A stretch of 64,000 bases of DNA, from assembly GCF_900230285.1 (NCBI RefSeq), contig NZ_OCNK01000002.1:372001-436000 (forward strand). The letters are read 5' to 3'. Both the position numbers and the translations under genes were made by a program. Source of the stretch: Blastococcus haudaquaticus (GTDB taxonomy: Bacteria > Actinomycetota > Actinomycetes > Mycobacteriales > Geodermatophilaceae). How positions within the stretch are numbered: position 1 is the stretch's first letter; each line of letters begins with the position of its first letter. Below, piece after piece: positions 18 to 46,172 of this stretch. Below the pieces are notes generated by a model, which ran no database searches, had not been told where the DNA came from, and saw only the letters and a list, made by a program, of their open reading frames with translations.

Positions 18-2054
18 TCAGCGGAGGAACGCGGCAGCGACGCCGGAGTCCACGGGCACGTGCAGCCCCGTCGTCCGGGTGAGCTCGCCGCCGGTCAGTG
101 CGAACACGGCGTCGGCCACGTGGTCGGGGAGGACCTCGCGCTTGAGCAGGGTCCGCTGGGCGTAGAACTCGCCGAGCTTGTCCTCCTCGACCCCGTACAC
201 GGCCGCCCGGCTGGCCCCCCAGCCGCCGGCGAAGATGCCCGACCCGCGGACGACGCCGTCGGGGTTGATGCCGTTGACCCGGATCTGGTGCGGGCCGAGC
301 TCGGCGGCCAGCAGCCGTACCTGGTGGGCCTGGTCGGCCTTGGTGGCGCCGTAGGCGATGTTGTTCGGCCCGGCGAACAGGGAGTTCTTCGAGGAGATGT
401 AGACGATGTCCCCGCCGAGCTCCTGCTCGATCATGATCCGGGCCGCCTCGCGTGAGACCAGGAAGCTCCCCTTCGCCATCACGTCGTGCTGCAGGTCCCA
501 GTCCTGCTCGGTGGTCTCCAGCAGCGGCTTGGAGATCGACAGGCCGGCGTTGTTCACCACCAGGTCGACACCCCCGAACGCGAGCAGCGCCTCCCGGAAC
601 GCGGCGGCCACGGCTTCGGCGTCGCTGACGTCGGCGGCCACGCCGATCGCCACGTCAGCGGACCCGATCTCGGCCGCGGCGTCCTGGGCCTTCGCCAGGT
701 CCAGGTCGGCGACGACGACGCAGGCGCCCTCGGCGGCCAGGCGGTGCGCGACCGCCTTGCCGATGCCGCTGGCCGCACCGGTGACCAGCGCGACGCGGGT
801 CGCCAGCGACTTGGGCTTCGGCATCCGCTGGAGCTTGGCCTCCTCCAGCGCCCAGTACTCGATGCGGAACTTCTCGCTCTCGTCGATGGGCGCGTAGGTG
901 GAGACCGCCTCGGCGCCGCGCATCACGTTGATCGCGTTGACGTAGAACTCGCCGGCCACTCGGGCGGTCTGCTTGTTGGCGCCGAAGCTGAACATGCCGA
1001 CGCCGGGCACCAGCACGATCGCCGGGTCGGCGCCGCGCATCGCCGGGCTGTCCGGGGTGGCGTGCCGCGCGTAGTAGGCGGCGTACTCGGCGCGGTACTC
1101 CTGGTGCAGCTCCTTCAGCCGCGCGACGACGTCCTCGACCGGCGCGGTCGCCGGCAGGTCGACGACCAGCGGGCGCACCTTGGTGCGCAGGAAGTGGTCG
1201 GGGCAGCTCGTGCCCAGCGCGGCGAGACGGGGGTGCTCGCTCGACGCCAGGAAGTCGAGGACGACGTCGGAATCGGTGACGTGCCCGACCTGCGGCTTGT
1301 CGGTCGAGGCCAGGCCGCGGATCACCGGCGCGAGGGCGGCCGCCCTGATCCGCCGCTCCCCCTCCGGCAGCGCCTCGTACCCGGGCAGCGCCGGGCCGAA
1401 GGGATCCGGGCGGCCGCGCTCGGCGAGGAACTGCTCCGCCGTCCGGATGATCTCGAGGCTGTTGGCCTCGCACTGCTCGCTGGTCTCCCCCCACGCGGTC
1501 ACGCCGTGCCCGCCGAGGATGCAGCCGATCGCCTGCGGGTTCTTCTCCGCGATCTCGGCGATGTCGAGCCCGAGCTGGAAGCCGGGCCGCCGCCAGGGCA
1601 CCCAGACCACCCGGTCGCCGAAGCACTCGCGGGTCAGCTGCTCGCCGTCGGCGGCGGTGGCCAGGGCGATCCCGGAGTCGGGGTGCAGGTGGTCGACGTG
1701 CGCGGCCCGGACGAGGCCGTGCATCGCGGTGTCGATGCTCGGCGCGGCGCCGCCACGGCCGTGCAGGCAGTAGTCGAACGCGGCGACCATCTCGTCCTCC
1801 CGGTCGACGCCCGGGTAGACGTCGACCAGCGAGCGGAGCCGGTCGAGCCGGAGGACGGCGAGGCCGGCCTCCTCCAGCGTGCCGAGGTCGCCGCCGGAGC
1901 CCTTCACCCAGAGCAGCTCGACCGGCTGACCGGTGACCGGGTCGGTGTCGGTGCCCTGGGCGGAGGTGTTGCCGCCGGCGTAGTTGGTGTTGCGCGGGTC
2001 CGCGCCGAGCCGGTTGCTACGGGTCAGGAGGTCGCTGACCACGGGGTTCGTCAC
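18..2054 (-). CDS. rhaDE: Bifunctional rhamnulose-1-phosphate aldolase / short-chain dehydrogenase (RhaD-RhaE fusion)
   Basis: Predicted 678-residue cytoplasmic fusion. The N-terminal ~400 residues are a class II aldolase domain with the metal-site motifs HLHPDSGIA and GGHGVTAWG. It would cleave L-rhamnulose-1-phosphate to DHAP and L-lactaldehyde. The C-terminal ~260 residues are an SDR domain with the nucleotide motif TGAASGIGKA and active-site YGATKAD, expected to oxidise lactaldehyde to lactate. Full length for the known actinobacterial and Bacillus aldolase/SDR fusion family. GTG start with a GGAAGG ribosome site upstream. It lies 95 bp downstream of rhaI on the same strand and very probably shares its transcript. 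No RhaB-type kinase is in the window, so it may lie beyond the left edge. Confident family call; the reaction follows from the family. Confidence 0.93.
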   Translation of the reverse strand: MTNPVVSDLLTRSNRLGADPRNTNYAGGNTSAQGTDTDPVTGQPVELLWVKGSGGDLGTLEEAGLAVLRLDRLRSLVDVYPGVDREDEMVAAFDYCLHGRGGAAPSIDTAMHGLVRAAHVDHLHPDSGIALATAADGEQLTRECFGDRVVWVPWRRPGFQLGLDIAEIAEKNPQAIGCILGGHGVTAWGETSEQCEANSLEIIRTAEQFLAERGRPDPFGPALPGYEALPEGERRIRAAALAPVIRGLASTDKPQVGHVTDSDVVLDFLASSEHPRLAALGTSCPDHFLRTKVRPLVVDLPATAPVEDVVARLKELHQEYRAEYAAYYARHATPDSPAMRGADPAIVLVPGVGMFSFGANKQTARVAGEFYVNAINVMRGAEAVSTYAPIDESEKFRIEYWALEEAKLQRMPKPKSLATRVALVTGAASGIGKAVAHRLAAEGACVVVADLDLAKAQDAAAEIGSADVAIGVAADVSDAEAVAAAFREALLAFGGVDLVVNNAGLSISKPLLETTEQDWDLQHDVMAKGSFLVSREAARIMIEQELGGDIVYISSKNSLFAGPNNIAYGATKADQAHQVRLLAAELGPHQIRVNGINPDGVVRGSGIFAGGWGASRAAVYGVEEDKLGEFYAQRTLLKREVLPDHVADAVFALTGGELTRTTGLHVPVDSGVAAAFLR

Positions 2055-2095
2055 GTTCGTCGTCCTTCCGATGGTGACGTGCTGGAACGGCCTGG

Positions 2096-2122
2096 CCGCA
2101 GGGGCCCGCCGCGAGCCTGCGG
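2096..2122. terminator. Intercistronic hairpin between rhaI and rhaDE
   Basis: CCGCAGG at 2096-2102 pairs with CCTGCGG at 2116-2122 around a 13-nt GC-rich loop, in the 95-bp gap between rhaI and rhaDE. There is no U-tract, so it more likely acts as an mRNA stability or partial attenuation element than as a full stop. Structure seen, function inferred. Confidence 0.35.
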
Positions 2123-2149: not shown

Positions 2150-3319
2150 TCAGGCGCCCCAGCCGGCCTGCTGGCCGCCGACGCGCTCGCGGGCGATGCG
2201 CTCCTGGTAGCCGGAGCGGGCGTAGGCGGCGGACGGCTCGGGGTCCAGGCCCTGCGACTCGCGCAGCTCGCCCAGCAGCGGACGGACGTCGGTGTTGTAC
2301 GCGTCCATCAGCAGCGCGTTGGCGCCGAGGACGTCACCGGCCTGCTGGGCCTCGGCGAGCGCCGCCCGGTCGACGAGCAGCGCCTTCGCCGTCGCCTCCT
2401 GGACGTTCGTGACCGACCGGATCTGGCCGGGGATCTTCGGCTCGATGTTGTGGCACTGGTCGAGCATGAAGTTGACGCCGGACTCCGGACGGAGCGCGTC
2501 GTTGCCGACGATCTCGTTCATGATCCGGAACAGCTGGAACGGGTCGGCCGAGCCCACGATGAGGTCGTCGTCGGCGTAGTTGCGCGAGTTGAAGTCGAAG
2601 GCGCCCAGACGCCCGGCCCGCAGCAGCTGCATCACGATGAACTCGATGTTCGTGCCCGGCGCGTGGTGGCCGGTGTCCAGGACGACGGTCGCCTGCTCGC
2701 CCAGCGCGAGGCAGTGCACCAGCGAGGTGCCCCAGTCGGGGATGTCCATCGCGTAGAAGTACGGCTCGAAGAACTTGTACTCGAGCAGCATCCGCATGTC
2801 CGGGCCGAGCATCGCGTAGATCTGCGAGAGCGAGTCGGCCAGCCGGTCCTGGCGGGCGCGCAGGTCGTCCTGGCCCGGGTAGTTGGTGCCGTCCGGCAGC
2901 CACACCTTGAGGTCGGTGGAGCCGGTGGCGTGCATGACCTCGACGCACTGCGCGTGGTGGTCGACGGCCCTGCGGCGGGTCGCCGGGTCGGCGTGGGTCA
3001 GCGAGCCCAGGCGGTAGTCGTCGTCCTGGAACAGGTTGGAGTTGATCGCCCCGATCCGCACGCCCAGGTCGCCGGCGTGGGCGGCGATCTTGCCGTAGTC
3101 GTCGACGAGGTCCCACGGGATGTGCAGCGAGACCCGGGGGGCGACACCGGTGTACCGGTGCACCTGGGCGGCGTCCTCGAGCTTCTCGTACGGGTCGCGG
3201 GCCACGCCCGGCTGGCCGAACACCTTGAAGCGGGTGCCGGAGTTCCCGAACGCCCACGACGGGAGCTCGATGGTCTGGGTCGCGAGCGCGCCGATGGCGG
3301 CGGCGCGGGGGTCGGTCAC
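2150..3319 (-). CDS. rhaI: L-rhamnose isomerase (RhaI type)
   Basis: 389-residue TIM-barrel sugar isomerase, expected to convert L-rhamnose to L-rhamnulose in the cytoplasm using two divalent metals. Metal-site stretches typical of the RhaI/Pseudomonas-type enzyme are visible: LEYKFFEPYFY, VLDTGHHAPGTN and FDFNSRNYADDDL. Start chosen at the GTG at 3319, which follows an AGGAG ribosome site. The frame stays open for 29 more codons upstream, but that part is not family-like and would cross the operator. First gene of a rhaI-rhaDE unit divergent from lacI-lutABC. A LacI-type palindrome lies about 30 bp upstream. The family resembles xylose isomerase, but the RhaDE neighbour fixes the substrate well. 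Confidence 0.93.
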   Translation of the reverse strand: MTDPRAAAIGALATQTIELPSWAFGNSGTRFKVFGQPGVARDPYEKLEDAAQVHRYTGVAPRVSLHIPWDLVDDYGKIAAHAGDLGVRIGAINSNLFQDDDYRLGSLTHADPATRRRAVDHHAQCVEVMHATGSTDLKVWLPDGTNYPGQDDLRARQDRLADSLSQIYAMLGPDMRMLLEYKFFEPYFYAMDIPDWGTSLVHCLALGEQATVVLDTGHHAPGTNIEFIVMQLLRAGRLGAFDFNSRNYADDDLIVGSADPFQLFRIMNEIVGNDALRPESGVNFMLDQCHNIEPKIPGQIRSVTNVQEATAKALLVDRAALAEAQQAGDVLGANALLMDAYNTDVRPLLGELRESQGLDPEPSAAYARSGYQERIARERVGGQQAGWGA

Positions 3320-3348
3320 AAGAGCTCCTGACGGCTGGGGCACAGCTG

Positions 3349-3360
3349 TGAAACGTTTCA
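3349..3360. promoter_or_regulatory. LacI-family operator 1 (rhaI side)
   Basis: Perfect 12-bp palindrome TGAAACGTTTCA with the central CG typical of LacI/PurR-family operators. It lies 30 bp upstream of the rhaI start, so a bound repressor would block the rha promoter. Sequence seen; regulator assignment to the adjacent LacI protein is inferred. Confidence 0.75.
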
Positions 3361-3437
3361 GCGACTGCTGGCGCCGACCATAGGGAGCCTGGTAGACCTG
3401 TGTCAACGGTCACGGCGCGGCGGGCAGCGCTCGCGGT

Positions 3438-3449
3438 TGAACCGGTTCA
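3438..3449. promoter_or_regulatory. LacI-family operator 2 (lacI-lut side)
   Basis: Perfect 12-bp palindrome TGAACCGGTTCA, 35 bp upstream of the lacI GTG start. It shares the TGAA..TTCA frame with operator 1 but has CCGG at the centre. The two sites are 89 bp apart centre to centre, so one repressor could bind both and control both divergent operons. Confidence 0.72.
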
Positions 3450-3483
3450 GCGGACTGTGCCCCGACGCCCAGGAGGAGCCTGC

Positions 3484-4509
3484 GTGAACGCCAGCATCCG
3501 GGACGTGGCCGAACGCGCCGGCGTCTCCGTCGGGACGGTCAGCAACGTGCTCAACCGCCCCGATACGGTCAGCGAGTCAACCCGCGACCGCGTCCTCGCC
3601 GCGATCGAGGCCCTGGGCTTCGTCCGCAACGAGTCGGCCCGCCACCTGCGCGCGGGCCGCAGCCGCACCATCGGCCTGGTCGTCCTCGACATCGCCAACC
3701 CCTTCTTCACCGACGTCGCCCGTGGTGTCGAGGAGGTGGCCAACGCGCAGGGACTCTCGGTCATCCTCTGCAACACCGACGACGAGCCGGACAAGCAGGC
3801 GGCCCACCTCGATTCCCTCGCCGAGCAGCGCGTGCAGGGCGTGCTGATCACGCCCACTGCGGAGCCCTCCCCGCAGCTGGAGTCGTTGCGACGCCGCGGG
3901 GTGCCCGTGGTCCTCGTCGACCGCCAGGCCCCGGACATCGGCCAGTGCTCGGTCGCCGTCGACGACCACCTCGGCGGACGCCTGGCCGGCGAGCACCTGC
4001 TCGAACACGGCCACCGGCGCATCACGTTCATCGGCGGCTCCTCTGGGCTGCCGCAGATCCAGGAACGCCTGGACGGCGTGAGCGCGGCGTTCCGGGCGGT
4101 GTGCGGCTCGGACGACGGCCTGACCGTCATCTCCCCGGAGTCGCTCACCGTCGCGGGCGGGCTCGAGGCGGCCGCACGCATCGTGGGCATCCCCGCCGCC
4201 CGCCGGCCCACCGCCGCGGTGTGCGCCAACGACCTCATGGCCCTCGGCGTCCTGCAGGGGATGGTGCGCCACGGCGTCCGGGTCCCGGACGACTTCGCCA
4301 TCGTCGGGTACGACGACATCGACTTCGCGGCAGCGGCGGCGGTGCCGCTGACCTCGGTGCGCAAGCCGCGGCTGGAGCTGGGCCGACGGGCGACCGAGCT
4401 GCTGCTGGCCGAGGCCCGGGGCGACGGTCACCGGCACGAGCAGCAGGTGTTCGGCCCGATGCTCGTCGTCCGCGAGTCGAGCATGGTGCGCCGGGACCCG
4501 ACAGCATGA
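3484..4509 (+). CDS. LacI-family transcriptional regulator, probable rhamnose/lactate repressor
   Basis: 341-residue repressor. The N-terminal helix-turn-helix (IRDVAERAGVSVGTVSNVL, about residues 4-22) is followed by a hinge (LRAGRSRTIGLV) and a periplasmic-binding-like effector domain with IANPFFTDVARGVEE and VCANDLMALGVLQ. GTG start at 3484, preceded by AGGAGGAG; more upstream codons are open but lie within the operator region. First gene of the lut operon: its TGA overlaps the lutA ATG by 4 bp. It probably binds the two palindromes at 3349 and 3438 and releases them on sensing a rhamnose-pathway metabolite. Family certain; ligand inferred. Confidence 0.93.
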   Translation: MNASIRDVAERAGVSVGTVSNVLNRPDTVSESTRDRVLAAIEALGFVRNESARHLRAGRSRTIGLVVLDIANPFFTDVARGVEEVANAQGLSVILCNTDDEPDKQAAHLDSLAEQRVQGVLITPTAEPSPQLESLRRRGVPVVLVDRQAPDIGQCSVAVDDHLGGRLAGEHLLEHGHRRITFIGGSSGLPQIQERLDGVSAAFRAVCGSDDGLTVISPESLTVAGGLEAAARIVGIPAARRPTAAVCANDLMALGVLQGMVRHGVRVPDDFAIVGYDDIDFAAAAAVPLTSVRKPRLELGRRATELLLAEARGDGHRHEQQVFGPMLVVRESSMVRRDPTA

Positions 4510-8277: not shown

Positions 8278-10038
<1,761 letters not shown>

Positions 10039-15498: not shown

Positions 15499-15554
15499 CG
15501 GTTCTCCTCGTGGAAGTCGACGTCGGTGTAGGCCCGGATGCAGGGGGAACTCAT
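15495..15554 (-). CDS. 19-codon coupling micro-ORF, possible remnant of a nucleoside-hydrolase-like gene
   Basis: Reads MSSPCIRAYTDVDFHEENR. Its ATG overlaps the GH2 stop (ATGA) and its own stop overlaps the GH3 ATG (ATGA), so it bridges the two glycosidase genes exactly. The YTDVD stretch and a 17-base identity match the 3' part of the nucleoside-hydrolase-like gene at 19035, suggesting a shrunken relic kept for translational coupling. Too short for a homology call; translation not shown. Confidence 0.45.
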   Translation of the reverse strand: MSSPCIRAYTDVDFHEENR

Positions 15555-18150: not shown

Positions 18151-18165
18151 TCCCATTGACCGGCA
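18151..18165. promoter_or_regulatory. Probable IclR operator, divergent copy
   Basis: TCCCATTGACCGGCA matches the reverse complement of the TGCCGCTCAATGGCA motif at 13 of 15 positions. It lies in the GH2/SDR divergent region. This is the weakest of the five copies. Confidence 0.5.
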
Positions 18166-19018: not shown

Positions 19019-19037
19019 GCCGGGCCGCTCCGGCTCA
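19016..19037. terminator. Terminator hairpin embedding both convergent stop codons
   Basis: TGAGCCGG (19016-19023), loop GCCGCT, CCGGCTCA (19030-19037): perfect 8-bp arms. The first TGA is the corrected SDR stop. The last three bases are the reverse-complement stop of the nucleoside-hydrolase gene, so one hairpin serves as both stops and probable bidirectional terminator. Confidence 0.65.
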
Positions 19038-33349: not shown

Positions 33350-33364
33350 TGCCGCTCAATGGAA
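33350..33364. promoter_or_regulatory. Probable IclR operator, transport operon / iclR promoter
   Basis: TGCCGCTCAATGGAA in the 186-bp divergent region between the binding-protein gene and the IclR gene, 46 bp before the IclR start. Matches the TGCCGCTCAATGGCA motif at 14 of 15 positions. Fits autoregulation plus control of the transporter operon. Confidence 0.68.
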
Positions 33365-34229: not shown

Positions 34230-34244
34230 TGCCGCTCATTGGCA
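34230..34244. promoter_or_regulatory. Probable IclR operator ahead of the esterase gene
   Basis: TGCCGCTCATTGGCA, one mismatch from the palindromic motif, directly after the IclR stop and 42 bp before the esterase start. With TGCC/GGCA arms it is a good imperfect palindrome. Confidence 0.68.
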
Positions 34245-34285: not shown

Positions 34286-35236
34286 GTGCCGATCCATCCC
34301 GCCGTCGCGTCGAAGTTCCACCTGCTGGAGGGCATCGAGTCCTTCGAGGCCGGTCTGTCGGATCCCGTCACCCGCGCCCGGATGGAGGAGTTCATGTCCA
34401 TGACCGACGCGCCCGCACCGCCCGCCGTGGACATCCGCGCGGACACCGCACCGGGACCGCGCGGCCCCGTCCCCGTCCGCACCTACGGCGGCGCCGACGG
34501 ACATCGGCCCTGCCTGGTGTGGCTGCACGGCGGTGCGTTCCGCATGGGCGACCTGGACATGCCCGAGGCCGACCGGACCGCCCGCGAGGTGGCCACGCGC
34601 GCCGACGCCGTCGTCGTCAGCGTCGACTACCGGCTGTGCGTCGGTGGGGTGACCTACCCCGTGCCGCACGACGACGCGGTGGCCGCCGTCCGCTGGGTAC
34701 GCGACAACGCGGCCGCCCTCGGCGTCGATCCGCAGCGCATCTCGCTCGGCGGCGCGAGCGCCGGAGGCAACCTCGCCGCCGGAGCCGCGCTCAAGCTGCG
34801 ACTGGGCGCCAGCCGCCCTGCTGCTCGCCTACACGACGCTGCACGCCGTGGTGCCGCCACCGTCGCCCTCCCTGGCGCCGCTACTCGACGACGTCCCGCT
34901 GCTGCTCCGCTTCCTGCCCGAGAACCGACGGTCCATCACGGAGAACTACCTCGGCGGGCCGGCCAGCCGGGCCGACGGCTACGCCATGCCGGGCGGGGCG
35001 GTCCTCGAAAGCCTGTGCCCGGTACTGCTGCTCAACTCCGAGTACGACGACCTTCGCGCCTCGGCCGAGGTGTTCGCGGGCCAGCTCGCCGTCGCGGGCG
35101 TCGACGTCCGGCAGGTGCTCGTGCCGGGCATGCTGCACGCTTCCTGAACCTGCACGCGGGCATCGAGCCGGTCGACCGCGCGCTGGCCCTGATGGCACAG
35201 GCGGTGACCGGCGACCGGGTCGCGGTTCCGGCGTGA
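34286..35236 (+). pseudogene. HSL-type alpha/beta-hydrolase with two compensating frameshifts
   Basis: Begins VPIHPAVASKFHLLEGIESF and shows the oxyanion motif CLVWLHGGAFRMGD and nucleophile GGASAGGN. At about 34811 the reading moves to another frame: one extra base (the A of GCCAGCC) or two missing. That frame carries the remaining conserved part (LLLNSEYDDLRASAEVFAGQL with the catalytic Asp, VLVPGMLHA). Near 35140 a missing G in CACGCTTC shifts back to the first frame (FLNLHAGIEPVDRALALM). Corrected length is about 316 residues. Either paired assembly errors or a decaying gene; the intact middle domain favours errors or recent change. Possible depside or acyl esterase. Confidence 0.78.
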
Positions 35237-35387: not shown

Positions 35388-37106
35388 ATGGCGCGCGTGA
35401 CCCTGCGCAGTGCGGAGTGGTACTCCGGCGACGTCAAGAACGGCTACCTCCACCGGGCGTGGATGCGCCGCGGCGTCCCCGACGACGCGTTCGGCCGACC
35501 GCAGATCGCCATCGCGAACACCGCGTCGGACCTGGTGCCGTGCAACCGCCACCTCACCGAGGTCGCGGCGGCGGTGCGGGACGGCGTCCACGCTGCGGGC
35601 GGAACCCCGCTGGAGATGCCGGTGCTCGGTCTGGGCGAGACGCAGGTGCGGCCGACGGCGATGCTCTGGCGCAACTTGGCCGCGATGGAGATGGAGGAGA
35701 TGTTCCGCGCCAACCCGGTCGACGGGCTGGTGCTCCTCGGCGGGTGCGACAAGACGATCCCGGCGCTGCTCATGGCCGCCGCCTCCGTCGACCTGCCGGC
35801 CGTCGTCGTCCCTGGCGGACCGATGCTCACCGGCGCGTTCCGCGGCGTGCCGTTGGGATGCGGCACCGACGTCTTCCGGCTGTCGGAGGAGGTCCGCGCC
35901 GGCACGCTGTCGGCTGAGGAGTTCGCGCGCTCGGAGTCGGCGATGATCCGCAGCCGCGGCCACTGCAACACGATGGGCACCGCCTCGACCATGGGCTTGG
36001 TCGCCGAGGCGCTGGGCACTGTCGTCCCCGGGGTCGCGGGCACCCCGGCCGCGGACAGCCGGCTGCTGGAGGCGGCCCACGGCACCGGGCGGCTGGCCGT
36101 GGAGATGGTCGCCGCCGACCGGCGGCCCTCGACCTTCCTCACCGCGGGGTCCTTCGCCAACGCGATCGTCGCGCTGGCCGCGATCGGCGGCTCGACGAAC
36201 GCCGTCGTACACCTCCTGGCCATCGCCGGCCGCCTGGGGATCGACCTGAGCCTGGACGACTTCGACCGCATCGGCTCGCGGGTGCCGGTGCTGGTCGACC
36301 TGCTGCCGGCCGGCCGGTTCCTCATGGAGGACTTCCACCGCGCCGGCGGGCTCCAGGCCGTGCTGGGGCAGGTCCGGGATCTCCTCGACCCGACCGCCCT
36401 GACCGTGACCGGGAAGCCCTTGGTGGACTTCCTCGACGAGGCGTCGATCTGGGACCCGCAGGTCATCAGGCTGCGACGGGAGCCCCTGGTGGAGCACGGC
36501 GGCATCGCCGTCCTGCGCGGCAACCTCGCTCCCGACGGTGCGGTGATCAAGCCGGCCGCGGCCTCACCGCACCTGATGCGGCACCGTGGCCGGGCGGTGG
36601 TCTTCGACTCCATCGAGGACTTCCACGCCCGCGTCGACGACCCCGCCCTCGACGTCGACGCCGACTCGGTGCTCGTTCTGCGCGGGTGCGGGCCGAAGGG
36701 CTATCCCGGCATGCCGGAGGTCTCCAACATGCCGCTGCCCAGGAAGCTGCTGGAGGCAGGCGTACGGGACATGGTGCGCGTCTGCGACGGCCGGATGAGC
36801 GGGACCGCGTACGGCACGGTCGTCCTGCACGTCGCCCCCGAGGCCGCCGCCGGCGGACCGCTGGGGCTGGTGCAGACCGGCGACATCGTCACCCTCGACG
36901 TCGCCGCGCGACGGATCGACGTCGAGGTCCCGGACGACGAGATGGCCGCACGCACGCCCAGCACGGCGATGCGCGCCGGGTTCGCCGACCCGCGGCGCGG
37001 CTGGGAACGCCTCTACGTCGACTCCGTGCAGCAGGCCGACACCGGCACCGACCTGGACTTCCTCGTCGGCTCGAGCGGCTCCGCAGTCAGCCGCGAGTCG
37101 CACTGA
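35388..37106 (+). CDS. IlvD/Edd-family sugar-acid dehydratase (pentonate/hexonate type)
   Basis: 572 residues. Closer to arabonate/xylonate-type dehydratases than to IlvD itself. Three cysteines expected to hold the [2Fe-2S] cluster are present in SDLVPCNRHL, LLGGCDKTIPA and RSRGHCNTMGTAST; the last is the sub-family hallmark. Dehydrates an aldonic acid to a 2-keto-3-deoxy acid. ATG at 35388; an in-frame GTG at 35397 is an alternative. Its stop is one base from that of the convergent DapA-like gene, whose product could act on the keto-deoxy acid formed. Confidence 0.9.
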   Translation: MARVTLRSAEWYSGDVKNGYLHRAWMRRGVPDDAFGRPQIAIANTASDLVPCNRHLTEVAAAVRDGVHAAGGTPLEMPVLGLGETQVRPTAMLWRNLAAMEMEEMFRANPVDGLVLLGGCDKTIPALLMAAASVDLPAVVVPGGPMLTGAFRGVPLGCGTDVFRLSEEVRAGTLSAEEFARSESAMIRSRGHCNTMGTASTMGLVAEALGTVVPGVAGTPAADSRLLEAAHGTGRLAVEMVAADRRPSTFLTAGSFANAIVALAAIGGSTNAVVHLLAIAGRLGIDLSLDDFDRIGSRVPVLVDLLPAGRFLMEDFHRAGGLQAVLGQVRDLLDPTALTVTGKPLVDFLDEASIWDPQVIRLRREPLVEHGGIAVLRGNLAPDGAVIKPAAASPHLMRHRGRAVVFDSIEDFHARVDDPALDVDADSVLVLRGCGPKGYPGMPEVSNMPLPRKLLEAGVRDMVRVCDGRMSGTAYGTVVLHVAPEAAAGGPLGLVQTGDIVTLDVAARRIDVEVPDDEMAARTPSTAMRAGFADPRRGWERLYVDSVQQADTGTDLDFLVGSSGSAVSRESH

Positions 37107-37107: not shown

Positions 37108-37869
37108 TCACCGGCCGACGCGGGTGACCGCCGACGTGCCGAAGCGCTGCGCAGCCGCGCGCTTGTAGCCGGCCGGGAAGTCGGCGAACGCCGTGCGGTC
37201 GGCGGCGGCCGACCGCAACTGGGCCTCGGCATCGCCGGCGAACGTGGCGACGGCGTCCTCCGGCGCGAAGTTGGCGACCGCCACCAGCGCGCCCGCGCCG
37301 CCCACCGCGCCGCACAGGCCGACCAGACTGACCGCGCCGGTGTAGAGGTCACCGCCGAAGACGTCGCACTCGTGCAGCAGCCGGTCGGCGTCGCCGGAGG
37401 AGTCCTTGAGTCCCGCGACGGGCAGGTCGGCGAGCAGATCGACGGGAATGCCCGGCGCCGCGGCAGCCGGGAGGTGGTAGGCCAGCAACGGCCCGGTGGC
37501 CACCTCGGCGACCGTGTCGTAGTACGGCCGGGGATCGGGGACCCCCGGCGGCGAGAGCGCCAGGACGGCATCGGCGCCGGCCCCGAAAGCGCGCTCGGCC
37601 AGTTCCGCCGCCTGCCGGCCGGTGGGCGCGCCGGTGCCGGCCAGAACAGGCACGTCCGCCGGAAGCGCAGCCCGCACCGCGCCGACCACGGTGTCGCGCT
37701 CCTCCCTCGTGAGGGCGGCCGCCTCCCCCGTCGTCCCGGCGACCAGCACGCACCGCACGCCCAGGCCGACGAGCTGCCCCGCCAGGTCCGCGGTGGCCGG
37801 CGCATCCAGCGCGCCGTCCGGACGGAAGAGCGTGACCAGAGCGACCCCAACACCGGTGAAGAGAGGCAT
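37108..37869 (-). CDS. DapA-family aldolase/dehydratase (2-keto-3-deoxy acid type)
   Basis: 253 residues from ATG 37869 (MPLFTGVGVALVTLF); an in-frame GTG at 37884 is possible. DHDPS/N-acetylneuraminate-lyase barrel with GTTGEAAALT, a Tyr in LLAYHLP and the Schiff-base Lys in VAGLKDSSGD. Shorter than usual DapA (about 290). No lysine genes are nearby, so a catabolic keto-acid lyase or dehydratase is likely, for example for the product of the sugar-acid dehydratase. Divergent from the quercetinase gene; the IclR motif lies between them, 40 bp upstream of the chosen start. Confidence 0.85.
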   Translation of the reverse strand: MPLFTGVGVALVTLFRPDGALDAPATADLAGQLVGLGVRCVLVAGTTGEAAALTREERDTVVGAVRAALPADVPVLAGTGAPTGRQAAELAERAFGAGADAVLALSPPGVPDPRPYYDTVAEVATGPLLAYHLPAAAAPGIPVDLLADLPVAGLKDSSGDADRLLHECDVFGGDLYTGAVSLVGLCGAVGGAGALVAVANFAPEDAVATFAGDAEAQLRSAAADRTAFADFPAGYKRAAAQRFGTSAVTRVGR

Positions 37870-37908: not shown

Positions 37909-37923
37909 TCCCGCTCAATGGCA
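37909..37923. promoter_or_regulatory. Probable IclR operator, DapA-like / quercetinase divergent promoter
   Basis: TCCCGCTCAATGGCA, one mismatch from the motif, in the 125-bp region between the DapA-like gene and the cupin dioxygenase gene. Positioned to control both. Confidence 0.68.
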
Positions 37924-37994: not shown

Positions 37995-38549
37995 ATGAGC
38001 TTCGAGTACCTGATCGACCCGTCGAAGGGCCCGCAGTGGAAGGGCCAGCTGCCCGGCAAGCCGGTGCCCTACGTCCTGCGCAAGGGCGAGGGCGAGACCG
38101 CGATGCTCTTCCGCGACCTGTTCACGGTGCTGCTCTCCGGTGACGAGACGGAGAACCAGTTCGGCATCATCACCGCCGACTCCCCCGCGGGCGACGTCAT
38201 CCCCACCCACTCGCACAACGAGACCCACGAGACGTTCTACGTCATCGAGGGCAAGGTGAAGCTCTTCTACGAGGACGCCGAAGGGCAGAAGCAGTCGTCG
38301 CTGCTCTCCCCCGGCGACTTCGGCTACGTGCCGGCCGGGTTCGCGCACGCCTACCAGATCGTCGAGGACGCCCGGATGATGGGCACGCTCTCCGGTGGGT
38401 TCGAGCGGTTCTTCCAGCACATCGGCACGCCGACCGACCACGCCACGAAGGACCAGCCGCCGTTCATCCCGGACTTCCCGCGGATGGGTGCGGCGGCCCA
38501 GCAGCACAACATGCAGTTCATGCCGGACTACACCTGGCCCGACGCCTGA
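37995..38549 (+). CDS. Monocupin quercetin 2,4-dioxygenase-like protein (quercetinase)
   Basis: 184-residue single-cupin protein. Cupin motif 1 is complete: Gly66, His72, His74, Glu79, Gly86 in GDVIPTHSHNETHETFYVIE. Motif 2 has Gly107, Pro113, Gly115, His118 in GDFGYVPAGFAHAY. The 3-His/1-Glu metal set and the length match the small bacterial quercetinase known from Streptomyces sp. FLA. That enzyme opens the flavonol C-ring with O2, releasing CO and a depside. ATG preceded by GGGAG. Next gene, 11 bp on, is an esterase that could split the depside. Other monocupins look similar, so the reaction is strongly suggested, not proven. Confidence 0.8.
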   Translation: MSFEYLIDPSKGPQWKGQLPGKPVPYVLRKGEGETAMLFRDLFTVLLSGDETENQFGIITADSPAGDVIPTHSHNETHETFYVIEGKVKLFYEDAEGQKQSSLLSPGDFGYVPAGFAHAYQIVEDARMMGTLSGGFERFFQHIGTPTDHATKDQPPFIPDFPRMGAAAQQHNMQFMPDYTWPDA

Positions 38550-38560: not shown

Positions 38561-39487
38561 GTGCCCATCCCTGCCCTGCCGCTGCCGCCCCCCGCGCACG
38601 AGCAGCCGCTGCCTGCCGCCCTGCCCGGTCCGGACGGCACCCGGCTGCTGCTCGGCGTCCCGTACGCGGCCATCCCCGGTCTCCGCCCGTTGGAGCTCGA
38701 CCTGCACCTGCCGGCGGAGAGCGGCGGACCGGTCCCCGTGGTCGTCTTCCTGCACGGCGGTGGCTGGCGGATGGGCAGTCGGCACGCGGCGGGCCCGATG
38801 TACCGCGGCGCCTCCCCCACCCCGTTCGAACTGGTCGCACAGGCGGGCATCGCCGTCGCGAGCGTCGACTACCGCCTGTCGGGCGAGGCGACGTTCCCCG
38901 CCCAGCTGCACGACGCCAAGGCCGCCGTCCGGTGGCTGCGGACCAGGGCCGCCGAACTGGGCATCGACCCGACCCGGATCGCCGCCTGGGGCGAGTCGGC
39001 GGGCGGCCACCTGGCCGAGCTGCTCGGCCTGGTGACCGACCCCGCGCTGGAGGGGGACGTCGGGTTCGCCGGACAGTCCAGCCACGTCTCTACCGTCGTC
39101 GCCTGGTACGCCCCGAGTGACGTCGCGGCGGTGTCCACCGACCTCGGCACCGACCCGGCGGACGCCACCACCCGGGAGGCGCTGCTGTTGGGCGCCCCGG
39201 CGCGGGACGTGCCGGAGCTCGCCGCGCAGGCGAGCCCGATCAGCCACGTCTCCGCCGCCGCCCCACCGTTCCTGCTCCTGCACGGGGCGGCCGACCAGCT
39301 CATCCCGCCCGTCCAGAGCGAACGCCTGCACGACGCGCTCACGGCGGTCGGGGTCGACAGCGTCCTCGAACTGTTCGAGGGCGCGAACCACATGTGGCTC
39401 GGGTCGCCGGCTGCCGCGCAGGCAGCGCTCGAGCGCACCATCGACGAACTGCGCTGCCGCGTCGGCGCGAGGAGTGAGCAGTCATGA
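38561..39487 (+). CDS. Alpha/beta-hydrolase esterase, proposed depside hydrolase
   Basis: 308 residues from a GTG start 11 bp after the quercetinase stop, with GGAG in the gap. Oxyanion motif VVFLHGGGWRMG, nucleophile Ser in WGESAGGHLAELLG, acid/base in FLLLHGAADQLIPP and EGANHMWLG. HSL/acetyl-esterase type. Quercetinase yields an ester (depside) of protocatechuate and phloroglucinol carboxylate, so an esterase directly downstream is the expected next step. Its stop overlaps the FAH gene (ATGA). The substrate is inferred from position only. Confidence 0.87.
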   Translation: MPIPALPLPPPAHEQPLPAALPGPDGTRLLLGVPYAAIPGLRPLELDLHLPAESGGPVPVVVFLHGGGWRMGSRHAAGPMYRGASPTPFELVAQAGIAVASVDYRLSGEATFPAQLHDAKAAVRWLRTRAAELGIDPTRIAAWGESAGGHLAELLGLVTDPALEGDVGFAGQSSHVSTVVAWYAPSDVAAVSTDLGTDPADATTREALLLGAPARDVPELAAQASPISHVSAAAPPFLLLHGAADQLIPPVQSERLHDALTAVGVDSVLELFEGANHMWLGSPAAAQAALERTIDELRCRVGARSEQS

Positions 39488-40332
39488 GGATCGTGGGCAT
39501 CCGCCGGGACGGCGGCGTGCAGGTCGCGGCGCTGTCGGACGACGGCGCGCAGGTGACGGTGGTCGCCGGCCTGGAGGAGTTCTGGGCCGACGCGGCCGGG
39601 CACCTCTCCCGCAGCCCGGGCGGCGAGACGCTGACCGCGGCGGACGTCGAGTTCGTGCCGCCGGTGCTCCCCGGTGCCCGGGTGGTCTGCATCGGGCTGA
39701 ACTACCTCAAGCACGTCGCCGAGGGCAGCTTCAAGGACCAGGAGCTCCCGCCGCACCCGACGCTGTTCGCCCGGTGGTCGCAGTCGCTGACCGTGGGCGG
39801 TGCCGAGGTCCCGATCCCGGCGAACGAGGACGGCCTGGACTGGGAGGGCGAGGTCATGGCGTACGTCGGGTCGGGGCTCGTCGACGCGACGCCGGAGGAG
39901 GCGCTGGCCGCCGTCGTCGGGTACTCGACGTTCAACGACCTGACCTCGCGGCGGGCGCAGAAGCTCACCAGCCAGTGGATCCTCGGCAAGAACGGTGACC
40001 GGTCGGGCCCGCTGGGTCCGCTGGTGCCCGCGGCCGAGGTGGGCGACCTCCGCGACGGCCTCCGGGTGCAGACCCGGGTCAACGGCGAGACCGTCCAGGA
40101 CGGCAGCACCGACGAGATGGTCTACACGGTCGGCGACACCCTCTCGCTCATCTCGCACACCTTCACCCTGCGCCCGGGCGACCTGCTCGCCACCGGCACG
40201 CCGTCGGGTGTCGGCTACGGCCGGACGCCTCCGTGGCTGCTGCAGCCCGGTGACGTCGTCGAGGTCGAGGTCGAGCGCCTGGGCGTCCTCACGAACTCGG
40301 TCGTGGCCAACGAGGCTCGTCATGAGCGGTGA
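39484..40332 (+). CDS. Fumarylacetoacetate-hydrolase (FAH) family protein
   Basis: 282 residues. Core FAH domain: VVCIGLNYLKHVAEG, metal-binding acids in DWEGEVMAYVG and FNDLTSRRAQ, and TGTPSGVGYGRTPPWLL. Members cleave C-C bonds in acylpyruvates or 2,4-diketo acids, typical end steps of aromatic-ring or sugar-acid breakdown. ATGA-coupled to the esterase gene and overlapping the next gene by 11 bp. Could process a ring-cleavage product of the phloroglucinol part, or a 2,4-diketo-3-deoxy sugar acid. Confidence 0.9.
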   Translation: MRIVGIRRDGGVQVAALSDDGAQVTVVAGLEEFWADAAGHLSRSPGGETLTAADVEFVPPVLPGARVVCIGLNYLKHVAEGSFKDQELPPHPTLFARWSQSLTVGGAEVPIPANEDGLDWEGEVMAYVGSGLVDATPEEALAAVVGYSTFNDLTSRRAQKLTSQWILGKNGDRSGPLGPLVPAAEVGDLRDGLRVQTRVNGETVQDGSTDEMVYTVGDTLSLISHTFTLRPGDLLATGTPSGVGYGRTPPWLLQPGDVVEVEVERLGVLTNSVVANEARHER

Positions 40333-41575
40333 GTTCCGCCGGTTCCTCTTCCCGCACGACCACCCGCGGGTCGCCGAGGTCCGCGGCCTGGACCCGTACA
40401 CCTATGGGGAGTTCTCCCGGAAGCCCGGCACGTTCACCGGCGGCCTGGTCGAGGGGTGGACGCCGCTCTACCGGAACGAGTTCCGCGGTGTCACCGAGGA
40501 CGGCACCCTCCGCGAGGGGCTCTTCCCGTTCGAGCCGGCCCGCCCCGGTGAGGAGGCGCCGGTCGCCGAGATGGTCGCCGCCGCGCACGACCTGCTCACC
40601 GTCCTCGACGACGACGACCGGGAGCGGATCTCGCATCCCGTCGACGCCGTCGAGTGGCAGACCTGGGCCAACCCGGAGTTCATGCAGTTCGACACCGGCC
40701 TGCGGCTGGACCTGCAGCCGGTGGCGGTGCGCGACAAGGCGCTCGCGCTGGTGGCCGCCTCGCTCTCCCCCGAGGGCTACGAGCTCACCCACGCGATGAT
40801 GCTGATCAACGGCTTCCTCGGCGAGGTCGTCGACCTGCCGACCGTGCTCAACGAATTCAGCTACAACATCGCGCTCTACGGCGAGCCCGACCTGCGCGCC
40901 CCGTGGGGCTGGCAGCTGTTCGGCCACCACTGCGCGGTCAACTGCCTGGTGGTGGAGGGCCGCATGGTCGTCTCGCCGGTCTTCCTGGGCGCCGAGCCGG
41001 ACGAGATCGACGCCGGGCCGCATGCCGGCCTCCGCGAGGTCTTCGCCGACCGGATCGCCCTCGGCACCGCACTGATGGCCGCGCTGCCCGCCGAGCAGCG
41101 GGCGGCCGCCACTGTCTACGAGCAGATGGTGGACCCGGCGATGCCGCCGGGCCGGGTGCACCCGGGCGACGAACGCCACCTGGCGGGCGCCTTCCAAGAC
41201 AACCGCGTGATCCCGTTGGAGGGCATCCGGGTCGTCGACATGCCGGCCGAGGCGCAGGCGCTCGCGGTGCGGATCGCCGAGTCGTTCGTCCGTCTGCTGC
41301 CCGAGGGCCCGCGCGCGGCCCGGCTGCGCGAGATCGAGGCGCACCTGGACGAGACGTGGTTCTCCTGGATCGGCGGATCGCAGCCGGGCGACGTCTTCTA
41401 CTACCGGCTGCAGTCGCCGGTGCTCATCGCCGAGCTCGACCACCACTGCGGCGTCTTCCTCGACTACGACACCCCGCAGCCGTTCCACATCCACACCGTC
41501 CTGCGCACCCCGCACGGCAACGACTACGGCCGGTCCTGGGTCCGGCAGTGGCAGGAGCGCGAGGCGGCGAGCTGA
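40322..41575 (+). CDS. DUF3500-family protein, unknown function
   Basis: 417 residues matching the DUF3500 pattern. It has several conserved-looking His-rich blocks: WQLFGHHCAVNCLVVEG, LIAELDHHCGVFLDYD and PFHIHTVLRTPHGNDYG, suggesting a metal or redox-type active site. No signal peptide. ATG lies inside the 3' end of the FAH gene, so the two are translated together. Final gene of the quercetinase-esterase-FAH set; a catabolic role in the same pathway is inferred. I know no established biochemical function for the family. Confidence 0.75.
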   Translation: MSGEFRRFLFPHDHPRVAEVRGLDPYTYGEFSRKPGTFTGGLVEGWTPLYRNEFRGVTEDGTLREGLFPFEPARPGEEAPVAEMVAAAHDLLTVLDDDDRERISHPVDAVEWQTWANPEFMQFDTGLRLDLQPVAVRDKALALVAASLSPEGYELTHAMMLINGFLGEVVDLPTVLNEFSYNIALYGEPDLRAPWGWQLFGHHCAVNCLVVEGRMVVSPVFLGAEPDEIDAGPHAGLREVFADRIALGTALMAALPAEQRAAATVYEQMVDPAMPPGRVHPGDERHLAGAFQDNRVIPLEGIRVVDMPAEAQALAVRIAESFVRLLPEGPRAARLREIEAHLDETWFSWIGGSQPGDVFYYRLQSPVLIAELDHHCGVFLDYDTPQPFHIHTVLRTPHGNDYGRSWVRQWQEREAAS

Positions 41576-41581
41576 TCGTGG

Positions 41582-43218: not shown

Positions 43219-43233
43219 TGCCGCTCAATGGCA
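43219..43233. promoter_or_regulatory. Probable IclR operator ahead of the FAD hydroxylase-GH1 operon
   Basis: TGCCGCTCAATGGCA, the best copy: TGCC/GGCA arms around a 7-nt core, in the 254-bp divergent region before the FAD hydroxylase, 135 bp upstream of its start. Confidence 0.7.
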
Positions 43234-43368: not shown

Positions 43369-44997
43369 ATGACCCGCGTGCCCGAACGCGTCCCGGTGCT
43401 CGTCGTCGGCGGCGGCCCCAGTGGCCTGGCCGCCGCGATCGAGCTCGGCCGCCGGGGGGTGGAGGTGCTCGTCGTCGAGCCGCGCACCGTCCTCGACCCG
43501 CTCCGCCCACGTGCCAAGACGACCAGCGTGCGCACGATGGAGCACCTCCGGCGCTGGGGCATCGCCGAGCGGCTCCGTGCGCAGGCGCCGCTGCCGGTGG
43601 AGCACGCCCAGGACGTCGTCTTCGTGACGGGACTCTTCGGGCACGAGATCACCCGCTTCGAGAACGCCTTCGGCCTGTGGACCGACCCGCAGGAGGTCGC
43701 CGCCGAGGCCGGCCAGCAGGCGCCGCAGCCCATGGTCGAGGAGGTGCTGCGGGAGGCGGCGGCCGCGCTGCCGACGGTCACGCTGCTGACCGGCTGGCGG
43801 GCAGTGTCGGTCGCCGACGGCGTCGGCGCCGCCCGGGCCGTGGTCGAGGACCCCGACGGCACGACGCACGAGATCTCCGCCGACTACCTGCTCGGCTGCG
43901 ACGGCAGCAGCGGCGTCAGCCGGGCAGCGATCGGCGCCCGCTACGAGGGCTCGTCGGGAACGCTGCCCAATCTCTCCATCACCTTCCGCAGCTCGGCGCT
44001 CGAGGAGCGGGAGCTGTGCGCGCTCGGCATCCACTACTGGGTCATCGGCGCCCGCTACGGCGGCCTCATGGGGCGGCTGGACCTCGACGGCACCTGGTGG
44101 GCGATCGTCCAGGGCATCGACCGGCCGGACGGCGTCGACCCAGTCGCGCTGGTCCGCGCGCTGGCCGGCGACGCCATCGACGTCGACGTGCTCGCGACCG
44201 ACCCCTGGTCCGCGCGGATGCTGCTGGTCGACCGCTACCGCGGCGAGCGGGTCCTCCTCGTCGGCGACGCCGCCCACCTCAACCCCCCGTGGGGCGGCCA
44301 CGGCTTCAACACCTGCGTCGGCGACGCGGTGAACCTCGGCTGGAAGCTGGCCGCCGTGCTGCAGGGCTGGGCCCCGCCGTCGTTGCTGGACAGCTACGAG
44401 GCCGAGCGCCGTCCGGTGGCGTACCGGACCATCGGTGCCGCCGGCGACCAGGAAGCCTTCCTCGCGCCGTCCTTCGCCGACGTCGACCTCGACGACGACG
44501 GCACCGCCGGGCAGTTGCTGCGGGGCGACCTGGCGCACCGCCTCGACGTGAAGGACGCCGAGTTCCACAGCCTCGGGCTGGTGCTCGGCTACGACTACCC
44601 CGATTCCCCCGTCGTCGTCCCCGACGGGCGGCCGGTGCCGCCGCAGTCGCTGACGGAGTACACGCCGTCCGCCCATCCCGGAGCGCGGCTGCCGCACGCC
44701 TGGCTGCCCGACGGCCGCTCGGTCTTCGACCTGCTCGGCGACGGGTTCACCCTGCTCCGGCTGAGCGCCGACGCCGATGCCGGACCCCTGATCGCCGCGG
44801 CGACAGACGCCGGGCTCCCGCTCGCGGTCGTCGACCTGCCCGACCTCCGCCCGCTGTACGACGCCGACCTCGTCCTGGTCCGCCCGGACCAGCACGTGGC
44901 CTGGCGCGGATCCACCGGCGACCAGCCGCACGACCTGTTCCGCACCGTCGTCGGCGGAGCCGACGTCGTCGCCGACCTCGAGGAGATCACCCGATGA
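43369..44997 (+). CDS. FAD-dependent aromatic hydroxylase (class A flavoprotein monooxygenase)
   Basis: 542 residues. FAD-binding motif VPVLVVGGGPSGLAAAIELG at the N-terminus, DG motif LGCDGSSGVSRAAIG, and GD motif VLLVGDAAHLNPPWGGHGFN. A C-terminal thioredoxin-like domain follows, as in PheA/MhpA/TetX-related enzymes. Hydroxylates an aromatic ring with NAD(P)H and O2. ATG after CAGGAGA. ATGA-coupled to a GH1 beta-glucosidase and preceded by an IclR motif, so a phenolic aglycone or its fragment (for example a phloroglucinol) is the likely substrate. Specificity not readable. Confidence 0.9.
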   Translation: MTRVPERVPVLVVGGGPSGLAAAIELGRRGVEVLVVEPRTVLDPLRPRAKTTSVRTMEHLRRWGIAERLRAQAPLPVEHAQDVVFVTGLFGHEITRFENAFGLWTDPQEVAAEAGQQAPQPMVEEVLREAAAALPTVTLLTGWRAVSVADGVGAARAVVEDPDGTTHEISADYLLGCDGSSGVSRAAIGARYEGSSGTLPNLSITFRSSALEERELCALGIHYWVIGARYGGLMGRLDLDGTWWAIVQGIDRPDGVDPVALVRALAGDAIDVDVLATDPWSARMLLVDRYRGERVLLVGDAAHLNPPWGGHGFNTCVGDAVNLGWKLAAVLQGWAPPSLLDSYEAERRPVAYRTIGAAGDQEAFLAPSFADVDLDDDGTAGQLLRGDLAHRLDVKDAEFHSLGLVLGYDYPDSPVVVPDGRPVPPQSLTEYTPSAHPGARLPHAWLPDGRSVFDLLGDGFTLLRLSADADAGPLIAAATDAGLPLAVVDLPDLRPLYDADLVLVRPDQHVAWRGSTGDQPHDLFRTVVGGADVVADLEEITR

Positions 44998-46172
44998 CCG
45001 CCAGCAGCTTCCCCGAGAACTTCCTCTGGGGCACCGCCACCGCCGCGCACCAGGTGGAGGGCGGCAACGTCAACAACGACCACTGGGAGATGGAGCACGC
45101 CGAGCACTCCCCCTTCGTCGAGTCCAGCGGCGACGCCTGCGACTCCTGGCACCGCTGGGAGGAGGACCTCGACCTGGTGGCCGGCGCCGGCCTGAACACC
45201 TACCGCTTCAGCCTGGAGTGGAGCCGGATCGAGCCCGAGGAGGGCGAGGTCTCCCGCGCGGCGCTGGACCACTACCGGCGCATCGTCGACGGCTGCCGCG
45301 ACCGCGGATTGACGCCGATCGCCACGCTCGTGCACTTCACGATGCCCCGCTGGCTGATGCACGACGGCGGGTGGACCGGCCAGAAGACCGGTGACCGGAT
45401 CGCCCGGTTCACCGAGCTCGCGCTGCCCGCAGTCCGGGACGCGGCGTACGTCGCCACGATCAACGAGCCGAACCTGATGGCCGTCCAGCCGGTGATCGGC
45501 GGGATGGCCCGTCGCGGTGAGGAGATCAAGGGCCTGCCGGTGCCGGACCAGGCGGTGTCCGAGGCCCTGATCGGCCTGCACCAGCGCAGCATGGCGGTGC
45601 TCCGCGGCGCCGGATCGCCGCCGGCCGGGATGACGCTGGTCGGGCTGGAGTACATCGACGAGGGCGGCGGCCAGGAGCCGATGCAGGCCGCCCGCGCCGC
45701 GATGATGGACCAGTTCCTGACCGCCGCCGAGGGCGACGACTTCGTCGGCCTGCAGATCTACACCGCCCAGCGGTTCGGGCCCGAGGGGCTCATCGCCCCG
45801 CCGGCGGACCAGCAGACCCTGGCCCACGGCATGGAGCGCCGGCCGCGCGCCCTGAGCGCGGCGGTCCGCCACGCGGCCACCGTGCTCCCGGACATGCCGC
45901 TGCTCGTCACCGAGAACGGGATCGCCACGGCCGACGACGAGGACCGCATCCGGTTCACCTCCGACGCCCTGCAGAGCCTGTGCGAGGCCATCGCCGACGG
46001 CGTCGACGTCCGCGGCTACGTGCACTGGAGCCTGCTCGACAACTTCGAGTGGATGCTCGGCTTCGCCCCCACCTTCGGTCTGGTCGCCGTCGACCGGGAG
46101 ACCTTCACCCGGACGCCGAAGCCCAGCCTCGCCTGGCTCGGCGAGGTGGCCCGCCGCAACGGGCTGGGCTGA
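44994..46172 (+). CDS. GH1-family beta-glucosidase
   Basis: 392 residues, shorter than the usual 440-480. N-terminal signature FPENFLWGTATAAHQVEGG, acid/base Glu158 in ATINEPN, nucleophile Glu307 in LLVTENGIA, and WSLLDNFEWMLGF near the end. The core is complete; loops are shortened. No signal peptide. ATGA overlap with the aromatic hydroxylase gene is a strong hint that its substrates are aryl glucosides. Confidence 0.92.
   Translation: MTASSFPENFLWGTATAAHQVEGGNVNNDHWEMEHAEHSPFVESSGDACDSWHRWEEDLDLVAGAGLNTYRFSLEWSRIEPEEGEVSRAALDHYRRIVDGCRDRGLTPIATLVHFTMPRWLMHDGGWTGQKTGDRIARFTELALPAVRDAAYVATINEPNLMAVQPVIGGMARRGEEIKGLPVPDQAVSEALIGLHQRSMAVLRGAGSPPAGMTLVGLEYIDEGGGQEPMQAARAAMMDQFLTAAEGDDFVGLQIYTAQRFGPEGLIAPPADQQTLAHGMERRPRALSAAVRHAATVLPDMPLLVTENGIATADDEDRIRFTSDALQSLCEAIADGVDVRGYVHWSLLDNFEWMLGFAPTFGLVAVDRETFTRTPKPSLAWLGEVARRNGLG

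Follow-up and report, generated by a model that had tools for sequence, protein, structure and literature searches.

We analysed a 64,000-nucleotide window (positions 372001-436000 of contig C5, GC 73.3%) of a 4.51 Mb genome in 11 contigs, whose sequence relatives place the host in the Geodermatophilaceae, in a Blastococcus-like genus. The genes between 13276 and 46172 appear to form a single regulon, probably under the IclR-family protein IclR2, for the uptake and dismantling of rhamnosylated flavonol glycosides, a reading to which we give a probability of roughly 0.6. The locus is a real, conserved and operator-linked gene set, predicted to serve flavonol glycosides and to include a candidate bacterial 1,2,3,5-tetrahydroxybenzene route. 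Its gene families, the metal ligands of its cupin, its conserved gene company and its shared operator are direct observations, while every substrate, every catalytic step and the pairing of regulator with operator are predicted from sequence.

In the proposed route, the products of SBP5-OppB-OppCD-OppF would bring the glycoside into the cell, where cytoplasmic GH78, GH1 and other glycosidases, together with the esterase BD-FAE1, would strip sugars and acyl groups. The cupin would act on the flavonol, releasing CO and leaving a depside, from which a second esterase, BD-FAE2, would free 2,4,6-trihydroxybenzoate and a benzoic acid, which in the case of quercetin is protocatechuate. The phloroglucinol (A) ring would most likely be handled by FAD2, DUF3500 and FAH: FAD2 would take 2,4,6-trihydroxybenzoate or phloroglucinol to 1,2,3,5-tetrahydroxybenzene, and then, going by the chemistry, DUF3500 would cut the tetrol between neighbouring hydroxyls to give 2,4-dioxoadipate and FAH would plausibly split this 2,4-diketo acid, yielding pyruvate and malonate. 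The rhamnose could be metabolised by the RhaI-RhaB-RhaDE and LutABC module next door, and the protocatechuate by a pca-like operon ~95 kb to the right of the window.

Gene families were assigned by Pfam scans of chosen open reading frames (ORFs) of the window and, for some, by NCBIfam equivalog cut-offs. A first-pass annotation had listed a family-5 importer, two GH78, GH3, GH2, GH1 and GH43 glycosidases, a quercetinase-type monocupin, an esterase, an FAH hydrolase, two FAD hydroxylases and the rhamnose and lactate genes; all are present by Pfam on the scanned ORFs. Its list lacked DUF3500, BD-FAE1 (the window's other BD-FAE esterase), an ILVD/EDD-family dehydratase, a DHDPS-family aldolase and the shared operator. 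The gene set is compatible with rhamnosylated flavonols as a class, and rutin, the glycoside that annotation had in mind, is one candidate among them.

Conserved gene company

Family-level counts were made in 112 family genomes, with the cupin called present at E 1e-30 or better, window-type DUF3500 at ≥300 bits and GH78b at ≥70% identity. The cupin occurs in 29/112 genomes and window-type DUF3500 in 33/112; 28 of the 29 cupin genomes have both, and in 25/29 the two lie ≤7 kb apart. All 25 genomes with a GH78b match also have the cupin, and wherever the two share a contig (21 genomes) they are ≤22 kb apart. Six of the seven close-cupin relatives keep SBP5-OppB-OppCD-OppF-GH78b-BDFAE1, IclR2 and Cupin-BDFAE2-FAH-DUF3500-FAD2-GH1, some in rearranged form, in a core whose reading is limited by contig or fetch ends that fall in OppCD in G013 and in GH1 and BDFAE1 in G007. 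In the seventh relative, G024, cupin-BDFAE2 stands at one place and the IclR2-like, FAD2, FAH and DUF3500 genes at another.

An alignment scan with DUF3500 gave 77 loci, all actinobacterial, whose gene company was counted within the fetched stretches; minor neighbours were identified by Pfam on one example per type and the rest by similarity. Quercetinase-type cupins are found in 27 of these loci, 20 of them monocupins and seven bicupins (Brevibacterium), and the one bicupin of the seven that was compared with the PDB matched YxaG at 1.9e-49 to 2.9e-50. All 27 quercetinase loci, Amycolatopsis included, also hold a BD-FAE esterase, FAD2 and FAH. The proposal of the first-pass annotation that the import, GH78, quercetinase and esterase genes make up one set is borne out, these genes being both conserved together and linked by an operator.

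A shared operator

The operator is a 15 bp element, TGCCATTG-NN-CGGCA, recognized by aligning regions upstream of SBP5 (n=13) and of the cupin (n=21). It precedes five gene starts, from 18151 to 43233, and ties the importer/GH78 operon to the quercetinase operon and to a hydroxylase operon. The sites are TCCCATTGACCGGCA (18151..18165, plus strand) between GH2 and the SDR gene, TTCCATTGAGCGGCA (33350..33364, minus strand) between SBP5 and IclR2, TGCCAATGAGCGGCA (34230..34244, minus strand) before AbH3, TGCCATTGAGCGGGA (37909..37923, minus strand) ~72 bp before the cupin, and a perfect site (43219..43233, minus strand) before FAD2.

With ≤2 mismatches the window holds seven sites against 1.17 expected, a number reached by none of 100 shuffles; with ≤1 mismatch the whole genome holds eight, five of them at this locus. 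The 112 family genomes contain 70 exact sites, of which 60 are ≤25 kb from the cupin, five near DUF3500 where no cupin is present, two on split contigs with GH78 and three elsewhere, so that 67/70 mark this locus or separated parts of it; the backward pattern gave six exact hits. An exact site is present in 28/29 cupin genomes.

Per-gene counts in the 77 loci (≤1 mismatch, ≤400 bp before the gene) placed a site before the cupin in 18/20 cases and before SBP5 in 8/10, values that are partly circular because the pattern was learned from these upstream regions. The FAD2 count (17/25 at ≥60% identity) is independent, since FAD2 upstream regions were unused in pattern finding. Sites also precede IclR2 in 16/25 cases and GH1 in 5/16; FAH, which is mostly inside operons or under another regulator, has none (0/70). 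IclR2 (33420..34223, plus strand; Pfam) is probably the protein that acts on the operator, because it is co-conserved with the locus and divergent from SBP5 across a site.

The quercetinase-type cupin and its esterase

The cupin (37995..38549, plus strand) matches in sequence the solved Streptomyces quercetinase QueD (PDB 5fli, presumably from Streptomyces sp. FLA; E 2.7e-43) and B. subtilis YxaG (2.9e-44 to 3e-44). Its H72, H74, E79 and H118 align with H69, H71, E76 and H115 of QueD, the 3His/1Glu set as given in the portions of the literature available to us; the complete quercetinase-type metal set noted at first pass is therefore confirmed ligand by ligand. Both proteins are monocupins. 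The cupin is accordingly a predicted quercetinase (EC 1.13.11.24), which would cleave flavonols to CO and a depside.

BD-FAE2 (38561..39487, plus strand; Pfam) starts 11 bp after the cupin, directly behind it as had been described. The pairing extends beyond the family: a 47-49% homologue lies beside the cupin in three of four outside-family loci compared, on its 3' side in Streptomyces sp. NBC_01558 and two more genomes of the same class. In NBC_01558 the gene directly after a 44% cupin homologue, itself annotated as quercetin 2,3-dioxygenase, encodes a 47% BD-FAE2 homologue. In G110 the cupin-esterase pair stands with an IclR-like gene. Because of the pairing in these three outside loci and in G110, BD-FAE2 is the candidate depside esterase. 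In one of the three outside loci, L201, an Amidohydro_2 gene (8549-9547) stands between cupin and esterase, possibly a 2,4,6-trihydroxybenzoate decarboxylase. Unlike QueD-type loci, the regulon described here combines its cupin with a candidate A-ring route, GH78 enzymes and a glycoside importer; the stretches around the four outside-family cupins showed none of these.

Candidate A-ring genes

Behind the esterase follow FAH (39484..40332, plus strand; Pfam and NCBIfam), a candidate 2,4-diketo-acid (acylpyruvate-type) hydrolase, and DUF3500 (40322..41575, plus strand; PF12006, E 6.8e-101), the candidate 1,2,3,5-tetrahydroxybenzene ring opener. FAD2 (43369..44997, plus strand; Pfam FAD_binding_3 and NCBIfam) is a group-A ring hydroxylase and a candidate for 2,4,6-trihydroxybenzoate or phloroglucinol. 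DUF3500 and FAD2 are separated in the window by a DUF222 gene (41582-43114), as they are in three of the seven relatives (G013, G007 and G002); we treat this gene as an apparent passenger.

FAH is the steadiest partner of DUF3500, occurring in 71/77 loci and within 1.5 kb in 70/77; in the other DUF3500 subfamily it is a neighbour in 1/13 loci. The best NCBIfam match of FAH is 2,4-didehydro-3-deoxy-L-rhamnonate hydrolase (141.6 bits), and it matches a solved L-2,4-diketo-3-deoxyrhamnonate hydrolase at 9.9e-38, so that it might be LRA6, the last step of the non-phosphorylated L-rhamnose diketo pathway, grouped with the SDR and ILVD/EDD genes of the window. Its score is far under the LRA6 model cut-off of 500, and the protein is tied to DUF3500 and occurs where ILVD/EDD is not seen; we rejected this assignment, which has next to no probability.

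One of two FAD hydroxylase types accompanies DUF3500 in 48/77 loci. Other company comprises an FCD-GntR-type regulator (43 loci), an MFS transporter of the Aeromicrobium camelliae-like type (16) and a small SnoaL_4-type protein (11), which was not seen in the window operon. CoA-transferase III and/or carboxyltransferase genes occur in 10/77 loci and would weakly suit malonate as a product. In three loci of Arthrobacter and Gordonia, a 2,4-diacetylphloroglucinol (DAPG) hydrolase is near DUF3500 (PF18089 in L128, homologues in L130 and L183); this marker of phloroglucinol chemistry suggests that the DUF3500 route may also serve acylphloroglucinols such as the antibiotic DAPG. Corynebacterium glutamicum, a control genome, also has a DUF3500 gene above the Pfam cut-off.

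Six DUF3500 residues, H202, H203, E371, H389, H391 and R395, are invariant in 30 aligned proteins. The only clear solved relative, the antibiotic-pathway protein ApmL (9x86), keeps the residues aligned with all six; the description given to it is of a dehydratase rather than a dioxygenase. The flavonol regulon could therefore hold while DUF3500 acts as a hydratase or dehydratase on a ring-opened or lactone intermediate or a dearomatized tautomer, another enzyme opening the A ring. Against this, Pfam identified no other known ring-cleaving family in the window ORFs that were scanned, and fungal work, in the parts accessible to us, proposes DUF3500 for ring opening (PMC12388069, PMC13094099). 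We regard the dehydratase alternative as unlikely, and prefer DUF3500 as the ring opener.

The ApmL description is one of several points that weigh against our reading of the locus. Others concern the operator: besides the circularity of the cupin and SBP5 counts, the backward pattern gave four hits at ≤1 mismatch in the window's own genome against the eight of the true pattern, the cupin has no site upstream in Amycolatopsis and one Klenkia, and the Brevibacterium loci showed none ahead of their genes. The rest concern gene company. No quercetinase was seen in the fetched stretch of 50/77 DUF3500 loci; 396 phylum-wide genomes yielded two other cupin genomes and four other DUF3500 genomes with zero overlap; none of DUF3500, FAH and FAD2 was seen in the stretches around the four outside-family cupins, of which the Streptantibioticus cattleyicolor one has no esterase behind it; and the G110 genome has no DUF3500 match despite its cupin, esterase and IclR genes.

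The many DUF3500 loci with no quercetinase in view, and the three with DAPG hydrolase, would also be expected if the substrates were other rhamnosylated polyphenols or acylphloroglucinols and the cupin cleaved an unrelated enol or polyphenol; the family of quercetinase-like cupins is wide. Since monocupin and bicupin types share the esterase, FAD2, FAH and DUF3500 company, and the window cupin has the full QueD metal set, we consider such substrates improbable and keep to flavonol glycosides.

A wider proposal, which we hold tentatively and at a little under even odds, is that Actinobacteria own a central 1,2,3,5-tetrahydroxybenzene pathway in which DUF3500 represents a ring-cleaving oxygenase of a new structural class, and that in the Geodermatophilaceae one IclR operator wires this pathway to an importer, rhamnosidases and a quercetinase, giving a one-regulon flavonol route to central metabolism.

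Predicted import and deglycosylation

The importer and most glycosidases form a single minus-strand run. It starts with SBP5, a family-5 solute-binding protein (SBP_bac_5; 31668..33224) with a lipobox-like N-terminus, and continues with an OppB-type permease (30630..31571), a fusion of OppC-type permease and ABC ATPase (OppCD; 28594..30633), an OppF-like oligopeptide-type ABC ATPase (27575..28597), the alpha-L-rhamnosidase GH78b (24933..27578), BD-FAE1 (24025..24936), the alpha-L-rhamnosidase GH78a (21377..24028; PDB 6gsz, E 9.6e-234), GH43 (19881..21380) and, at its end, a nucleoside-hydrolase-family protein (19035..19865), all assigned by Pfam. BD-FAE1 is thus flanked by both GH78 genes, whose products each carry all five Pfam domains (Ig, N, concanavalin-like, 6-hairpin and C). 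The nucleoside-hydrolase-family gene is also found at the G031 and G017 loci.

Further glycosidases lie on either side. A GH2 enzyme of the DUF4982 type (15551..17971, minus strand; Pfam) has the operator 180 bp upstream, and GH3 (13276..15498, minus strand; Pfam), with 83% identical genes in G036 and G031, is perhaps co-transcribed with it, judging from the spacing. GH1 (44994..46172, plus strand; Pfam) follows FAD2. In a crude check of N-terminal hydrophobicity, the best 12-mer scored 0.33 to 0.98 in six glycosidases compared with 2.12 in SBP5; with no strongly hydrophobic N-terminus among the six, the claim that the glycosidases have no visible signal peptide stands at the level of that check.

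Polysaccharide loci commonly hold GH78, GH43, GH2, GH3 and BD-FAE genes, and the sugar genes here could in principle belong to an ordinary pectin or rhamnogalacturonan locus beside unrelated aromatic genes. Such a locus would not account for an operator that links the sugar and aromatic units, or for GH78b (≥70%) never occurring without the cupin in the 112 genomes. The lack of signal peptides on the glycosidases in the crude check also argues against it, and Pfam found no polysaccharide lyase in the ORFs that were scanned. We therefore disfavour the polysaccharide explanation as very improbable and retain flavonol glycosides as the likely substrates.

Proposed rhamnose and protocatechuate exits

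The left end of the window holds a rhamnose module: RhaDE (18..2054, minus strand; Pfam, and NCBIfam 1062.6 over a cut-off of 567.75), the L-rhamnose isomerase RhaI (2150..3406, minus strand; NCBIfam 596.6 over a cut-off of 531.35), a LacI-family regulator (3400..4509, plus strand; Pfam) and LutA, LutB and LutC (4506-5303, 5300-6760 and 6757-7380, plus strand; Pfam). An FGGY-kinase gene in the rhamnulokinase position, just left of the window, was read as RhaB. RhaI is present in 27/29 cupin genomes and in 18/83 others. Both RhaI and cupin are on one contig in 15 of the 27 genomes that have both, and lie ≤50 kb apart in 12. Neighbourhoods were counted in 12 of the 45 RhaI genomes: RhaDE adjoins RhaI in 12/12, RhaB in 11/12 (the G087 stretch showed none) and LutABC in 10/12 (not seen in G114 and G109).

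No site with ≤1 mismatch was found in the window near RhaI, LutABC, the MFS gene or the first FAD gene (10925-12841). Membership of RhaI and LutABC in the regulon is therefore not supported: the genes are present and form a real module that often lies next to the flavonol locus, and that module is a separate one. The MFS gene was likewise set aside as a member. The bacterial RhaI-RhaB-RhaDE and LutABC catabolism is all there, with nothing new except this frequent placement.

For the B ring, intradiol dioxygenase matches lie at C5:530.9-532.1 kb, ~95 kb right of the window, in a region where an IclR gene and a pobA-like gene accompany an apparent pcaHGBDC operon, read by eye from protein starts. 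Because this pca-like exit is outside the window, the locus is not self-contained, contrary to the first-pass annotation.

Comparison with known systems

Bacterial flavonoid catabolism with FAD hydroxylases is known from the Herbaspirillum fde and Variovorax ifc clusters, whose enzymes hydroxylate the A ring of flavanones and isoflavones while the skeleton is still intact; to our knowledge these clusters have no quercetinase, GH78 or DUF3500. In Aspergillus, Martins et al. (2024) reportedly described a cluster of a monooxygenase, an FAH-like protein, a DUF3500 protein and a short protein; its FAH-like member is matched here by the linked FAH. The short protein, said to be tied to 5-hydroxydienelactone, has no counterpart that we saw in the window. 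The likeness to the fungal pathway lies in a DUF3500 protein plus an aromatic monooxygenase, and the link is by shared family name only. Unlike the fungal pathway, the route proposed here is bacterial, would be fed by a quercetinase and an esterase, and is operator-linked.

In the sections of the fungal papers at our disposal, the DUF3500 protein is the proposed 1,2,3,5-tetrahydroxybenzene ring cleaver (PMC12388069, PMC13094099), and the pathway is said to seem restricted to fungi at present (PMC13094099, 2026). In bacteria, the same tetrol is used by the anaerobic pyrogallol-phloroglucinol transhydroxylase route, as a co-substrate toward phloroglucinol. As far as the available extracts go, that route differs in being anaerobic and reductive, the tetrol is not a ring-opening intermediate in it, and DUF3500 is unmentioned (PMC13039779). 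Among the matches listed for DUF3500, quercetinase, tetrahydroxybenzene, flavonoid and phloroglucinol literature, which cover few subscription journals and include partial texts of PMC12388069, PMC8416521, PMC13094099, PMC4416304, PMC9756786, PMC12366328 and PMC13039779, there was no comparable bacterial system and no gene set assigned to aerobic bacterial breakdown of the flavonol A ring.

The present analysis names a candidate A-ring set (esterase, FAD2, DUF3500 and FAH), an operator, a likely regulator and 77 loci. If the assignments are right, a central aromatic pathway that seems fungi-restricted according to the accessible part of PMC13094099 would extend to Actinobacteria, bacterial DUF3500 proteins of the window type would gain a suggested function, and the Geodermatophilaceae would have a way to live on plant flavonols.

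Other genes of the locus

Both FAD ring hydroxylases of the first-pass annotation are present by Pfam, and FAD2 alone is clearly cupin-associated. The other, a phenol-hydroxylase-type enzyme (10925-12841; Pfam FAD_binding_3), has no operator before it, a two-mismatch site lying inside the gene. It was rejected as a member, being found in 13/29 cupin genomes versus 21/83 others (p 0.06, in a Fisher test that, like all those on gene co-occurrence here, ignores the relatedness of the genomes). The window genome is the only one in which it lies ≤50 kb from the cupin, by a distance count that cannot register G013, where the gene shares a contig with GH78b.

The SDR dehydrogenase gene (18268..19113, plus strand; Pfam) diverges at its C-terminus from one relative past ~18981, where a frame break is likely. 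AbH3, an Abhydrolase_3 gene (34286..35236, plus strand; Pfam), reads against its relatives in frames 2, 3 and 2, that is, with two frame breaks, from sequencing error or decay. Next to it are the ILVD/EDD-family dehydratase (35388..37106, plus strand; Pfam and NCBIfam) and the DHDPS-family aldolase (37108..37869, minus strand; Pfam), the latter divergent from the cupin across the operator; together they may degrade a second sugar acid without phosphorylation. At least eight relatives also have the ILVD/EDD gene close to the cupin, accompanied by the DHDPS aldolase gene.

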